Below are positions 40,026 to 45,398 of a stretch of DNA of 52,849 nucleotides, piece after piece. This stretch comes from Leptolyngbya sp. 'hensonii' (lineage in GTDB: Bacteria; Cyanobacteriota; Cyanobacteriia; GCF-001939115). The stretch lies in NCBI RefSeq assembly GCF_001939115.1, contig NZ_MQTZ01000028.1, positions 82,501 through 135,349 of the forward strand, in the 5' to 3' direction. How positions within the stretch are numbered: the first letter of the stretch is position 1; each line of letters begins with the position of its first letter. Under the pieces are notes generated by a model. The model saw only the letters and a program-made list of their open reading frames with translations, had not been told where the DNA came from and made no database searches. The position numbers and the translations under genes are program-made.

Positions 40026-40105
40026 CAATGGGGCGTTAGATTGATCGTAGGTCAATTCATTGCAAGACAGTAGATTGTAGATAACCGAGGAGACGTGCAG
40101 TGCTA

Positions 40106-40273
40106 ATGAAGGACATATCTCTCAAGCGGAACTATCAAAGCCCTAAATTATTGGTCTATGGTAGCATTCGTGAATTGACCCAAACCAGTTCGAAGTTTGG
40201 TGGATTGCAAGATACCTGCACTTCTAATCCATTTAAGAGTCAGGCGGGTGGTCCTCCGGCTTGTCCTCCTTAA
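40106..40273 (+). CDS. Lasso-type RiPP precursor peptide
   Basis: A 55-residue ORF. The leader has the lasso motif Y10..P13.L15...G19.....T25, the element bound by lasso recognition domains, and reads YQSPKLLVYGSIRELTQ. After the leader the only acidic residue is Asp36. Ring closure needs Asp/Glu at position 7-9, so the core must start at residue 28, 29 or 30; with Thr27 at the usual -2 site it starts at Ser29, giving an 8-residue ring (29-36) and a 19-residue tail ending in Pro55. Cys38 and Cys53 could form a disulfide. ATG 40106 has GAGGAGA 12 bp upstream; an in-frame GTG at 40100 has better spacing and may be the true start. Neighbours (cyclase, kinase, exporter) support the call. Mature structure is inferred. 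Confidence 0.87.
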   Translation: MKDISLKRNYQSPKLLVYGSIRELTQTSSKFGGLQDTCTSNPFKSQAGGPPACPP

Positions 40274-40309: not shown

Positions 40310-41248
40310 GTGGTGTTTTGTTATTCGGTCTATGGCCTGTACCTGCAATCCAATCAGCCTGTGCCCGGTCTGGAAGCAGTGCCAGGGGTTCCCAGGGTGG
40401 ATGTGCGGGTGGAGTTGGCACAAAACGCAACAATGGCGATCGAGGCTGTAGAGTTTGCATCCCCGATCAACCAGAATTCTTGGCGATTTAATTACCCCGA
40501 CGGCACAAAATTTATTGTGGATGCAGAAGGCACCGCTATCTGGGCCACCTGGATCAACCCGATGACGCTGGAGGATACCGCTACTTATCTTCTGGGTCCA
40601 ATTTTGGGTTTTCTGCTGCGGTTGCGGGGCGTGATCTGTTTACATGCCAGCGCGGTGGTTATGGGGCAGGGGGTGGCAGTGTTCGTCGGCCCCGCTGGAG
40701 CTGGTAAGTCAACCACGGCGGCTCTCTTTGCCCACCAGGGCGATCCAATTCTTTCCGATGATGTGGTGGCACTCCTGCCTCAGGAAGAGGCTTTTTGGGT
40801 GCAACCGGCCTATCCTTATTTGCGACTCTGGCCCTCTTCCGTGCAGTTGCTTTATGGGGCACCGGATGTGCTACCGCCTTTAACGCCTAACTGGGAGAAG
40901 TGTTATCTGGCCTTGACGCAGACGGACTATCGATTCCAGCAAGATCCTTTGCCCCTGCGTGTGATTTACCTCTTGAGGCCCAGACGGGATGACCTGATGG
41001 CCCCAGAGATTCAACCCGTTGCGGCTGCGGCTGCATTGGTGGATCTGATTGCCAATACCTATGGCAATAGCTTACTCGATAAGCCGATGCGAGCCATGGA
41101 ATTTCAGGGTCTGAGTCGCCTGGTGACCCAGATTCCGGTACGATGCCTGACGGCCCAGGCCGATCCACCTGACCTGTTTCAACTGTGTGATGCAGTCCGG
41201 GCTGATGTGGCTAGCCTGTCTGCTCCAGGATTTAATGTTGAAAGTTGA
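40310..41248 (+). CDS. HPr-kinase-like protein of RiPP cluster
   Basis: A 312-residue protein. LHASAVVM precedes the P-loop GPAGAGKSTTAAL, followed by ILSDDVVAL; this order is that of the HprK C-terminal domain. Small HprK-like kinases occur in paeninodin-type lasso clusters, where they phosphorylate the C-terminal Ser of the precursor. Here the precursor ends in Pro-Pro, so that role does not fit directly and another Ser/Thr or another target must be considered. The start is GTG 40310 (or GTG 40313), 36 bp after the precursor. The gene sits between the precursor and a methyltransferase. Confidence 0.85.
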   Translation: MVFCYSVYGLYLQSNQPVPGLEAVPGVPRVDVRVELAQNATMAIEAVEFASPINQNSWRFNYPDGTKFIVDAEGTAIWATWINPMTLEDTATYLLGPILGFLLRLRGVICLHASAVVMGQGVAVFVGPAGAGKSTTAALFAHQGDPILSDDVVALLPQEEAFWVQPAYPYLRLWPSSVQLLYGAPDVLPPLTPNWEKCYLALTQTDYRFQQDPLPLRVIYLLRPRRDDLMAPEIQPVAAAAALVDLIANTYGNSLLDKPMRAMEFQGLSRLVTQIPVRCLTAQADPPDLFQLCDAVRADVASLSAPGFNVES

Positions 41249-41260
41249 AATGTGAGCTGA

Positions 41261-42403
41261 ATGTATACCATCGCAGGTTACGGGGAAATGATCGCAGACG
41301 AGGGGCGTATGGGCCCTTACGTTCAGGCGTTGCGCCAAACAGTGAAACCGGGATCTGTGGTGCTGGATCTGGGGGCGGGCACCGGCATCTTTGCCTTTCT
41401 GGCCTGCCAAATGGGAGCCGAGCGGGTGTATGCGATCGAGCCAGGGGCCTGTATTCAGGTTGCCCGCCAGATGGCGCAAGCCAATGGCTATGCCGATCGG
41501 ATTGAGTTTATCCAGCAGCTCTCCACGGAGGTGACTCTGCCCCAGCCCGTGGATGTGATTATTTCCGACCTGCGGGGAATTCTGCCTCTATTTCAAACCC
41601 ACATTCCGGCCCTAGCCGATGCCCGTCATCGGTTTCTAGCTCCGGGTGGGGTGCTGATTCCGCAGCAGGACAGGCTCTGGGGTGCGATCGTCACCGCTCC
41701 TGAAGTCTATGACCCGCTGGTGCAGCCCTGGGAGAATCGCTACGGGCTGGACATGAACGCGGCCCGTCAGGTGATCACCCATGCCTGGTACAAGGCGAAC
41801 CTGAACGGGACGCATTGCCTGACGGAGCCCCAGCTTTGGGGAGAACTGGATTACCGGAACCTGGAACAGCCTGATCTGGCTGGCCCCTTAACCTGGACCC
41901 TGACCCGCTCTGGTACGGCCCATGGTCTTTGCCTCTGGTTTGAAACGACCCTGCTGGAAGGGATTGGCTTTTCCAATGCCCCGGATCAGCCGCCCCTGCT
42001 CTATGGTCAAGCTTTCTTTCCCTGGCCAACACCGGTGCAACTGGCGATCGGCGATCGGGTAGAGGTGACCCTGCGGGCGAACCTGGTCCGCAATGACTAC
42101 ATCTGGCGCTGGCAGACGCAGGTGCTGGCGCAGGAGACGGTAACCGCTCAGTTCAATCAGTCCACCTTCCAGAGCCATCCCCTGGCTCTGGCGGAATTGC
42201 ACCTGCAGGCCGACTCCCATCAGCCTGCCCTCAGCCTGAAGGGGCAGGTGATGCACCATATTCTGGGCTGGATGGATGGGGACACGGCCCTGGGAGAGAT
42301 CACCCAAAAGGCCCTGGTTGCCTTTCCAGATTATTTTGCCGCCTGGCAGGACGCCTTTGATCTTGTCGCCCAGGTCTCCCGTCTGTATAGTCGCCCAGCA
42401 TGA
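41261..42403 (+). CDS. PRMT-like SAM-dependent methyltransferase with C-terminal helical domain
   Basis: A 380-residue protein with the PRMT-type layout: an N-terminal helix, SAM motif VLDLGAGTGIFAFLACQMGA (34-53), VYAIEP (56-61), a Rossmann core and a C-terminal beta-barrel-like part. In true arginine methyltransferases two Glu form the double-E loop (SE.........E); here they are Asp103 and Gln112 (ISDLRGILPLFQ), so arginine methylation is doubtful. The last 60 residues (SLKGQVMHHILGWMDGDTAL and following) resemble a small winged-helix/PqqD-like domain, by eye only. It sits between the kinase-like gene and the exporter (ATGA overlap), suggesting that it modifies the precursor or a cluster product. 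Confidence 0.83.
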   Translation: MYTIAGYGEMIADEGRMGPYVQALRQTVKPGSVVLDLGAGTGIFAFLACQMGAERVYAIEPGACIQVARQMAQANGYADRIEFIQQLSTEVTLPQPVDVIISDLRGILPLFQTHIPALADARHRFLAPGGVLIPQQDRLWGAIVTAPEVYDPLVQPWENRYGLDMNAARQVITHAWYKANLNGTHCLTEPQLWGELDYRNLEQPDLAGPLTWTLTRSGTAHGLCLWFETTLLEGIGFSNAPDQPPLLYGQAFFPWPTPVQLAIGDRVEVTLRANLVRNDYIWRWQTQVLAQETVTAQFNQSTFQSHPLALAELHLQADSHQPALSLKGQVMHHILGWMDGDTALGEITQKALVAFPDYFAAWQDAFDLVAQVSRLYSRPA

Positions 42404-44220
42404 GCAATCTTCGTAGTTTCCTGGCCGATAAATTTCAGGCCGTCCTGGCTCAACTGCCCTATTTGCCTCGATCGTTTGCGCTGGTTTGGGCTGCCGCACC
42501 TGCCTGGACGGTTTGCTGGGCCGTGCTCCTGGTGATGCAGGGGCTGCTGCCCGTTGCCATTACCTACCTGAGCCGGATTCTGGTGAATAGCCTGGTGAGT
42601 ACGTTGCAAACCAGGCTGGGTTTGCAACAGACCCTGTTCCTCGTGGCCCTGATGGCCAGTTTAATGTTGCTGGCCGAACTGATGCGGGGGCTGGTTACCT
42701 GGGTGCGGACAGCCCAGGGAGAACTGGTGCGGGACCATATCAGCAATCTGGTGCATCAGCAGGCAGCCCGGGTGGATTTTGCCTTTTATGAATCGGCGGA
42801 GTATTACGATCGCCTCTACCGGGCGCAAAATGATGCCCGGCTGCGCCCCCTGACCCTGCTGGAGAATGGGGGCAGTCTGCTGCAGAATGCCATTACCCTG
42901 ATCGGGCTGGTGCTGGTGCTGTTGCCTTTTGGTCTCTGGCTGCCGATTGTTCTGCTGGTGAGTACTCTGCCTGCGTTTTATGTGGTGCTGCGTTATAGCG
43001 TTAAGCAGCATCGCTGGTGGGTGCGGTCTACCCCGGATGAGCGCCGGAGCTGGTATTACAACTGGCTGTTGACCGATCGATCTAATGCGGCTGAATTGCG
43101 GATTTTTGATCTGGGGGATCATTTCCAAACCACCTATCGGCAGGTTCGGGAAAAACTGCGGCTGGAGCGGTTGCAACTGGCCCGAAACCAGAGCCTGGCT
43201 GAGCTGGGATCTCGGGCTCTGGCCCTGTTGCTGATGGGGGTAACCCTGGCCTGGATGGTCTGGCGGGCGCTGCAGGGCAAAGCTACCCTTGGGGATCTGG
43301 CCCTGTTCTACCAGGCGTTCAGCCAGGGGCAGGAGGTGATGCGCTCCCTGTTACAGAATCTGGGGCAGCTCTACACCAACAGTCTTTTTCTCAGCAGTTT
43401 ATTTGAATTTCTCACCCTGGACCCCCAGGTGGCAGAGCCTGACCAGCCTCGTCCATTGCCCTTGCCCCTGCAGGAGGGGATTCGGTTTCGGGATGTCACT
43501 TTCTCCTATCCGGGGAGTGATCGGCTGACCCTGCAGAATTTTAACTTGTTGTTTCCCGCCAGGAAAATCATTGCTATCGTCGGCAACAATGGCGCTGGGA
43601 AGAGTACCCTGATTAAACTGATCTGTCGCCTTTACGACCCGCAAAAGGGGGCGATCGAGCTAGATGGAATCGATCTGCGGCAGTTTGCCCTCAAAGATTT
43701 GCGTCAAATCATTACAGTCTTATTCCAGGAACCGGTTGAGTACAGTACAACTGCGGCAGAAAACATTGCACTGAGTTCTCTCATGGCGGAACCGAACCGG
43801 TCTGATATTGTGTTGGCGGCAGAAGCAGCCGGAGCGGATGAGCCCATCGTCCGACTGCCAGAAGGATACGACACCCTGTTGGGCAAGTGGTTTGGCGGCG
43901 CTGATCTGAGCACGGGCGAATGGCAGCGGCTGGCTCTGGCCAGGGCCTTTCTGCGGCAGTCGCCGATCGTCATTCTGGACGAGCCGACCAGTGCGATGGA
44001 TTCCTGGGCTGAGGCGGACTGGCTGGATCGCTTTCGTGCGCTGGTTGCTGGCCGGATGGCGATCGTCATTACCCACCGTTTTACGACGGCCATGCGGGCG
44101 GACATGATTCATGTCATGGTGGCAGGCCAGGTGATTGAGTCGGGTCGCCATGAAGACTTGCTGGCTCTGGAGGGTCACTATGCCCAGTCCTGGAAAATGC
44201 AGATGCAGGAAATCAAATGA
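42400..44220 (+). CDS. ABC transporter with fused membrane and ATPase domains, probable RiPP exporter
   Basis: A 606-residue half-transporter: about six membrane segments (residues 25-320) and an ATPase domain with GNNGAGKST, an LSTGEWQRLALARAF signature and IVILDEPTSAMD. No N-terminal C39 peptidase domain is present, so it does not cleave a double-Gly leader. It corresponds to the D protein of lasso clusters, exporting the mature peptide and giving self-protection. It starts at ATG 42400 in the stop of the methyltransferase gene and overlaps the next gene by ATGA. Substrate assignment rests on context. Confidence 0.88.
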   Translation: MSNLRSFLADKFQAVLAQLPYLPRSFALVWAAAPAWTVCWAVLLVMQGLLPVAITYLSRILVNSLVSTLQTRLGLQQTLFLVALMASLMLLAELMRGLVTWVRTAQGELVRDHISNLVHQQAARVDFAFYESAEYYDRLYRAQNDARLRPLTLLENGGSLLQNAITLIGLVLVLLPFGLWLPIVLLVSTLPAFYVVLRYSVKQHRWWVRSTPDERRSWYYNWLLTDRSNAAELRIFDLGDHFQTTYRQVREKLRLERLQLARNQSLAELGSRALALLLMGVTLAWMVWRALQGKATLGDLALFYQAFSQGQEVMRSLLQNLGQLYTNSLFLSSLFEFLTLDPQVAEPDQPRPLPLPLQEGIRFRDVTFSYPGSDRLTLQNFNLLFPARKIIAIVGNNGAGKSTLIKLICRLYDPQKGAIELDGIDLRQFALKDLRQIITVLFQEPVEYSTTAAENIALSSLMAEPNRSDIVLAAEAAGADEPIVRLPEGYDTLLGKWFGGADLSTGEWQRLALARAFLRQSPIVILDEPTSAMDSWAEADWLDRFRALVAGRMAIVITHRFTTAMRADMIHVMVAGQVIESGRHEDLLALEGHYAQSWKMQMQEIK

Positions 44221-45398
44221 TGATGGACGTGTTACCGGCAGCAATTACCTCTGAGGATTCCACCCGGCAGTGGGTGATTCGTTGCCTGCAGGGACGATTG
44301 GCCCCGCAAACCCTGGCCGCCACCCGCTACCTGCTGGCCCAGTCCAATCTGGATTGGAATCGGTTTCTGCAACTGGCCCAGGGAGAAGCGGTGGCCCCCC
44401 TGCTGTTTCAAGCCCTGCGGGGGCAGGCGATCGTCCCTGCCTGGGTGGAGGCTCAATTGGAGGCAGCCTATTACCGGAATGCCTGCCGCAATGCTCTCCT
44501 GCTGCATGAACTGGCTGCTGTTTTGCAGGCCCTGGCTAGGGTGGGGATTGAGGTGATTGTGCTGAAAGGGGTAGCCCTGGCGGAGCTGGTGTATCGGGAT
44601 ATTGGGGTGCGACCCATGAGCGATCTGGACCTGTTGATCCGATCGACCGATGTGGGCCGCGCCCGACACATCCTGGCAGACCTGGGTTACACTCCCCTGG
44701 ACCTGGAGATGCAGGCCGGATATACAGAAGAATTCCGCAATGAGGCCACTTTTGGCAAGCAGGGGCTAACGGAGATTTGTATTGATCTCCACTGGCGGCT
44801 GTTTAGCCCACTCTATTACCAGCGACGGTTGACGGCTGATTGGTTCTGGCAGACCCGGTTGCCGATTCAGATTAATCAGGTGACGGCCTTTGCCTTTGGC
44901 CCAGAAGCCCAATTACTGCATCTGTGCGCCCACCTCTCCCTGCACCACCAGGGAGAGGGGTTACTCTGGCAGCACGATATTGCTGAAGTCCTGCTTTATT
45001 ACCGACAGCAAATTGATTGGACTGTGCTGTTGCAGCAGGCCCGGACTTTTGACCTGGTGCTTTCGCTGCAACAGGTGCTGCTATCGGTGACCCAGAACTG
45101 GGATCTGACCCTGCCACCGGAGGTCTGGCAGGGGTTGCAGGATCTCAGTCCCTCCCCCAGGGAGGTGAGTGTGCTGGGCTGGCTGCGGGCTCCTCATCTG
45201 AGAAGTAGCCTGCGCTGTTTCCTGGCCGACTTATCGGTTGCAGCGGGCTGGCGTGAACGATTGCACCTGATGTGGAATATGCTGTTTCCCACGCGGGCTT
45301 ATATGCAACGCCGCTATCAGATTACCCATCCGCTGCTGATTCCTCTCTACTATACCTATCGGGTGCTGCTGGGCCTGCGGCGAGAATCCAGAGAGTGA
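44217..45398 (+). CDS. Nucleotidyltransferase-fold protein of RiPP cluster (NTP_transf_5-like)
   Basis: The 393-residue protein contains IEVIVLKGVALAELVY and RPMSDLDLLIR, the motif pair of the uncharacterised nucleotidyltransferase family that recurs beside HprK-like kinases in lasso clusters. DLD supplies the metal-binding Asp residues. The C-terminal part is helical (ALLLHELAAVL and similar). Its reaction is unknown; nucleotidylation or glycosylation-linked tailoring of the peptide has been suggested for relatives, but this is not shown. It starts at ATG 44217 in the exporter stop. It is the last gene of the plus-strand cluster and ends 5 bp from the convergent gene. Confidence 0.83.
   Translation: MMMDVLPAAITSEDSTRQWVIRCLQGRLAPQTLAATRYLLAQSNLDWNRFLQLAQGEAVAPLLFQALRGQAIVPAWVEAQLEAAYYRNACRNALLLHELAAVLQALARVGIEVIVLKGVALAELVYRDIGVRPMSDLDLLIRSTDVGRARHILADLGYTPLDLEMQAGYTEEFRNEATFGKQGLTEICIDLHWRLFSPLYYQRRLTADWFWQTRLPIQINQVTAFAFGPEAQLLHLCAHLSLHHQGEGLLWQHDIAEVLLYYRQQIDWTVLLQQARTFDLVLSLQQVLLSVTQNWDLTLPPEVWQGLQDLSPSPREVSVLGWLRAPHLRSSLRCFLADLSVAAGWRERLHLMWNMLFPTRAYMQRRYQITHPLLIPLYYTYRVLLGLRRESRE

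Follow-up and report, generated by a model that had tools for sequence, protein, structure and literature searches.

A lasso-type precursor from a little-studied cyanobacterial clade, with a possible 10-residue ring and unlinked leader-processing genes

Results

Precursor, cyclase and neighbouring genes

The window analysed here, a 52,849-nucleotide stretch of a contig from Leptolyngbya sp. 'hensonii', carries an operon-like series of genes in the order cyclase (C), precursor (A), kinase (K), methyltransferase (M), ABC exporter (D) and NTP_transf_5 nucleotidyltransferase (N) (Table 1). The precursor ORF translates to MKDISLKRNYQSPKLLVYGSIRELTQTSSKFGGLQDTCTSNPFKSQAGGPPACPP. The GTG upstream of its ATG may be the true start, which would make the leader two residues longer with nothing else altered.

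Table 1. Features of the precursor locus (positions in the window)
Feature	Description	Position	Strand	Basis
C	Lasso (isopeptide-bond) cyclase, 628 aa, Asn-synthetase fold, SGGLDS loop	37966..39852	+	NF033535, PF00733, GATase
Shine-Dalgarno	GAGGAG, 7 nt before GTG 40100, 13 nt before ATG 40106	40087..40092	+	Sequence
A	Lasso precursor of 55 aa, or 57 aa from GTG 40100	40106..40273	+	Sequence and homology
Leader motif of A	Y10..P13..L15...G19.....T25, positions -17 to -2	40133..40180	+	Register invariant in family
Predicted ring segment	Thr27-Asp36 (TSSKFGGLQD), 10 residues	40184..40213	+	Homology register and PMC10368454; closure predicted
Tail	Cys38 and Cys53 (core 12 and 27), possible tail-tail disulfide	40217..40264	+	Sequence; disulfide predicted
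K	HPr-kinase-like peptide kinase	40310..41248	+	Alignment; PDB HPrK match 2.7e-8
M	PRMT-fold methyltransferase without double-E loop	41261..42403	+	Profile and structure matches, loop comparison
D	ABC exporter, permease and ATPase, no peptidase domain reported	42400..44220	+	Domain matches
N	NTP_transf_5 nucleotidyltransferase	44217..45398	+	PF14907 2.3e-56

The leader of A holds the complete lasso pattern YxxPxL...G.....T. The window has one copy of this pattern, compared with 0.08 per dinucleotide shuffle (60 shuffles), and with cyclase and kinase genes alongside, the match lies far beyond chance. A scores above the cut-off of the NCBIfam model lasso_leader_L3 (19.6 bits against 19) and gives the genome's single match to NF033521. 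Against the family models NF033528 (lasso_cyano) and NF033535 (lass_lactam_cya), leader and cyclase both match under the curated cut-offs (28.3 bits against 33 for A; 388 against 525 for C), and the window belongs to a sister clade of these families, mostly with unlinked B1/B2 genes. A sequence-only reading of this DNA had described a 55-residue ORF with a full lasso leader motif, Asp36 as the sole acidic residue after the leader, and a Pro-rich C-terminus with Cys38 and Cys53; the ORF, Y10-P13-L15-G19, the single acid, both cysteines and PPACPP in the tail were all found as described. The ORF is a real, lasso-type precursor, which we file as a variant instead of a plain member because Asp36 falls at core position 10 in the family register, outside 7-9.

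C begins MSG, hence without the glutaminase Cys, as taken here for a lasso cyclase gene, while both other NF033535 matches in this genome have the MCG start of true Asn synthetases. The C2 and C49 Asn-synthetase homologues, considered as alternative cyclases, were rejected on their MCG start and different neighbours.

Leader register and core start

YxxPxL is reported always at leader positions -17 to -12 (PMC10368454), so that with Y10 at -17, Thr27 becomes core residue 1. The same register emerged from 72 related precursors gathered from loci of A's family: a motif search that did not require Thr gave 84 matches, 72 of them with Thr at Y+15 and the other 12 unrelated ORFs by eye, and the invariant leader Thr corresponds to Thr25, not Thr27, which again makes Thr27 core residue 1 and Asp36 core position 10. 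Gln26 fits the -1 position, where Gln is the commonest residue (40/72 precursors).

Y10-P13-G19-T25 align gap-free in all seven clade members, whose cores begin TSSKFGGLQD (window), NSSVGSGPD (G016), TSTTFVGSD (G168), ATNQGTAFD (G008), ASAVDGEAGD (G313), GTSDRKGRKD (G046) and SNAIGGRVD (Acidobacteria). The last was the one relative returned by a precursor scan of genome contigs, from an Acidobacteria MAG; a precursor search of plasmids gave no match, and the taxonomic order of G016 is represented by one genome only. The TSS, NSS and TST starts of the window, G016 and G168 can be aligned from the first core residue, sharing Gly at 7, with the Asp at core 10, 9 and 9, respectively; the window peptide therefore has one extra residue inside its predicted ring relative to its NSS/TST neighbours.

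This register displaces the core start of the sequence-only reading, in which cleavage after Ser28 would leave Thr27 at -2 and a 27-residue core with an 8-residue Ser29-Asp36 ring. That proposal keeps ring size inside the known 7-9, can use Thr27 as a second Thr two residues before Ser29, and has precedent in Ser1 lasso cores such as lariocidin and moomysin (PMC12427821), which also make its description of Ser-start cores as uncommon a mild overstatement. We nonetheless hold it distinctly unlikely, as it would make the leader after YxxPxL two residues longer than in the 71 other precursors and move the motif off its published position. In the alignment of homologues that it had proposed as a check, Ser29 falls opposite the third core residue of the relatives and not the first. 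All close relatives retain the Asp, with spacing shifted by one residue, and the pair of tail Cys is shared with the closest relative alone (G016, locus L044). A slip of cleavage by one residue would put Thr27 at -1 and give a 9-residue Ser28-Asp36 ring, matching most of the clade in size. Although position 9 is the commonest acceptor place (26/66) and alignment on the Asp yields a Ser28 start, we hold this unlikely, since Gln would then occupy -2, a position otherwise invariably Thr in the family. Cleavage at Gly32-Gly33 is unlikely given an exporter with no reported C39 peptidase domain. The sequence-only reading thus identified A correctly as a lasso-type precursor but misplaced its core start; A belongs to a cyanobacterial clade that has been little studied.

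Position of the ring acceptor

With Thr at -2, A has no Asp or Glu at core 7-9, and would have one only if cleavage were atypical. Among 66 precursors, 46 carry Asp or Glu at 7-9, four have an acid at 10 with none at 7-9, seven have their first such acid at 11-15, and nine show no acid in positions 7-15, one of which has Asp6; the same classes number 50, 4, 9 and 9 among the 72 precursors. The four with an acid at 10 come from four genomes (window, G046, G086 copy 2 and G251). In G086 the Asp10 copy (AFGQQPNVAD) lies between paralogues with Asp9 (SFGTPGAND and AFGNPAIND) and retains their x-Phe-Gly start, which speaks for an extended ring rather than a displaced start.

Counted against a 10-residue ring are the close relatives of A, where Asp stands mostly at 9; a sequencing error in the window is also conceivable. 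Published lasso rings have 7-9 residues, and larger ones are judged too flexible to hold the tail (review, PMC12427821); no lasso ring above nine residues was found in the literature searched, a weak negative from mostly open papers. Given the published range and the review's view of larger rings, we put ring size 10 for A slightly below an even chance. The same flexibility argument (a large ring would hold the tail poorly; PMC12427821) speaks for a product that is no lasso at all, either an unthreaded, branched-cyclic macrolactam or a linear phosphorylated or methylated peptide, as do some cyanobacterial lasso-leader precursors without an acid and with no cyclase in the stretch examined. The window locus, however, still has a cyclase gene next to A, whose single candidate acceptor is an Asp, and we consider such a product unlikely.

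If an acceptor at position 10 is real (11-15 or missing in other cyanobacterial precursors), the 7-9 rule, which underlies ideas of lasso tail retention and precursor recognition, is too narrow, and mining by ring size would misplace cores, with A as an instance.

Other loci hold precursors with unusual cores. Trp-leader precursors at L034, L042, L058, L060, L065 and L141 have their conserved Asp 11-15 residues beyond the Thr register (e.g. NDINFNKKIGTGD), so that, judging by their sequences, cleavage or ring size would have to differ from the textbook.

Leader-processing genes lie elsewhere in the genome

B1/B2 protease genes, which are usually (though not by strict definition) linked to A and C, were not found near these genes in the window. 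The genome's only PF13471 (B2) match adjoins its best PqqD (B1) match on contig C60 with no precursor or cyclase beside them, so that a B1 RRE and a B2 protease with a visible Cys/His/Asp pattern are both present. A second PqqD, on contig C11, was rejected as the B1 of A, since it adjoins ATP-grasp-like and decarboxylase-like genes.

The same split was seen in five genomes of five families: besides the window genome, the B1-B2 pair is on other contigs in G016, G008 and G313, and in G046, a complete chromosome in a single 4.72 Mb contig, it is 0.93 Mb away. Linked B genes occur in G038, G086, G172, G282, G213, G318 and others. The cyclase tree joins the window, the four other split genomes, G168a and the Acidobacteria locus in one group supported at 100/100. 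In the B2 tree those split genomes cluster with Acidobacteria and G251c (97/94). The window clade stands apart from other cyanobacterial lineages in both trees, which agree broadly, with weak resolution inside groups and some long branches. At the Acidobacteria locus a B2-like gene directly precedes C, so not every member of the clade shows the split.

Local absence of B1/B2 could also mean a decaying locus, with lasso genes left behind after the cluster's B1/B2 loss. This is highly improbable, as all genes are intact, five genomes of five families share the split, and the B2 clade is largely congruent. That A encodes a natural lasso-type peptide with a 10-residue Thr1-Asp10 macrolactam, and that its leader-processing genes are stably unlinked across several cyanobacterial families, is a joint claim we regard as possible but somewhat doubtful. 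The literature searched held nothing on point about unlinked lasso B genes (a weak negative), and cluster-based mining can call loci with such a split arrangement incomplete.

Another observation concerned the B2 proteins themselves: those of the window clade retain a VLND-type Asp, whereas most of the other cyanobacterial clade show VIG there and seem, from sequence, to be missing the expected catalytic Asp.

Tailoring enzymes and proposed pathway

K retains the catalytic H112, GxxGxGKS and SDD in the alignment. BsfK needs the same residue types and phosphorylates core Ser3 (PMC10368454), which corresponds to Ser29 of the window peptide. Paeninodin-type kinases act on a C-terminal Ser, which the core of A lacks. 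M matches PRMT2 structures at about 1e-30 and has SDLRG..FQ where the PRMT double-E loop has SEWMG..FE, such that both glutamates are absent and M is not classed as a true PRMT. Because the core has no Arg, a core arginine is excluded as its substrate. M adjoins K in most genomes with a strong M match. For N, phosphoglycosylated lasso clusters also carry a nucleotidyltransferase, with pseudomycoidin as precedent (PMC8498205).

The best explanation, to which we give an even chance, is a lasso precursor of a cyanobacterial clade with a two-part pathway and a 10-residue ring. B1 (leader-binding) and B2 (cysteine protease) from a distant locus, with the C60 pair as candidate, would bind YxxPxL and cleave after Thr25-Gln26 to release the 29-residue core TSSKFGGLQDTCTSNPFKSQAGGPPACPP; C would link the Thr27 amine to the Asp36 side chain, giving a presumably threaded 10-residue macrolactam, after which a Cys38-Cys53 disulfide may fix the tail in place. 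K probably phosphorylates a core hydroxyl, the best candidate being Ser29, at BsfK's site, while M and N would tailor the product and D, judging by its domains, would export it. The genes, leader register, sole acceptor and split genes are directly observed, and from these we infer cleavage, ring, threading, disulfide and modifications.

PRMT-fold methyltransferases beside an HPrK-like kinase recur in lasso-type clusters (window 41261-42403; L152-L160), and these enzymes fall into two types by loop sequence: SDLRG..LF, which lacks a double-E, and SVFTGNFLLEEDL. On PRMT-type lasso tailoring the literature searched gave nothing on point, a weak negative.

Comparison with known systems and related loci

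The bsf cluster of Bradymonas sediminis (BsfA/K/B1/B2, PMC10368454) resembles the window in its YxxPxL leader, separate B1 and B2, Ser at core 3 and HPrK-like kinase, whose catalytic residues are of the same types. It differs in having Ile at -2 and a Gly1-Asp8 ring where the window has Thr at -2, Thr1 and Asp10, and, of the two, only the window has a PRMT-like enzyme and unlinked B1/B2. Paeninodin and pseudomycoidin clusters (PMC8498205) likewise carry a kinase and nucleotidyltransferase beside the lasso core genes, but there a C-terminal Ser is phosphorylated, whereas the window core ends in Pro. In metanodin (PMC12670498), residue 1 was assigned from Thr at -2 as Asn, not Gly/Ala/Ser/Cys, and G016 also starts with Asn; metanodin has a ring of the size expected for a lasso and is gammaproteobacterial, unlike the cyanobacterial window. 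LP2006, a class IV lasso (PMC12427821), has both Cys in the tail, as A does, with a shorter tail, Gly1 and an ordinary ring.

Related loci added some minor observations. L128, L129, L134 and L135, from Nostocales-like and other cyanobacteria, combine a complete lasso leader with B1, B2, kinase and exporter genes but show no cyclase in the stretch examined, and their cores (QVGGSGGFGTT..) have no ring-region acid; L128 and L134 have glycosyltransferase-like and NAD-epimerase-like neighbours, and the four are possibly acyclic, glycosylated relatives of lasso peptides. At L044, in the closest relative, the precursor has a Pro-rich Cys tail like that of A (PPCPT), and the gene after the kinase (L044:10576-11226) resembles, on visual inspection, a 2OG-Fe(II) hydroxylase.
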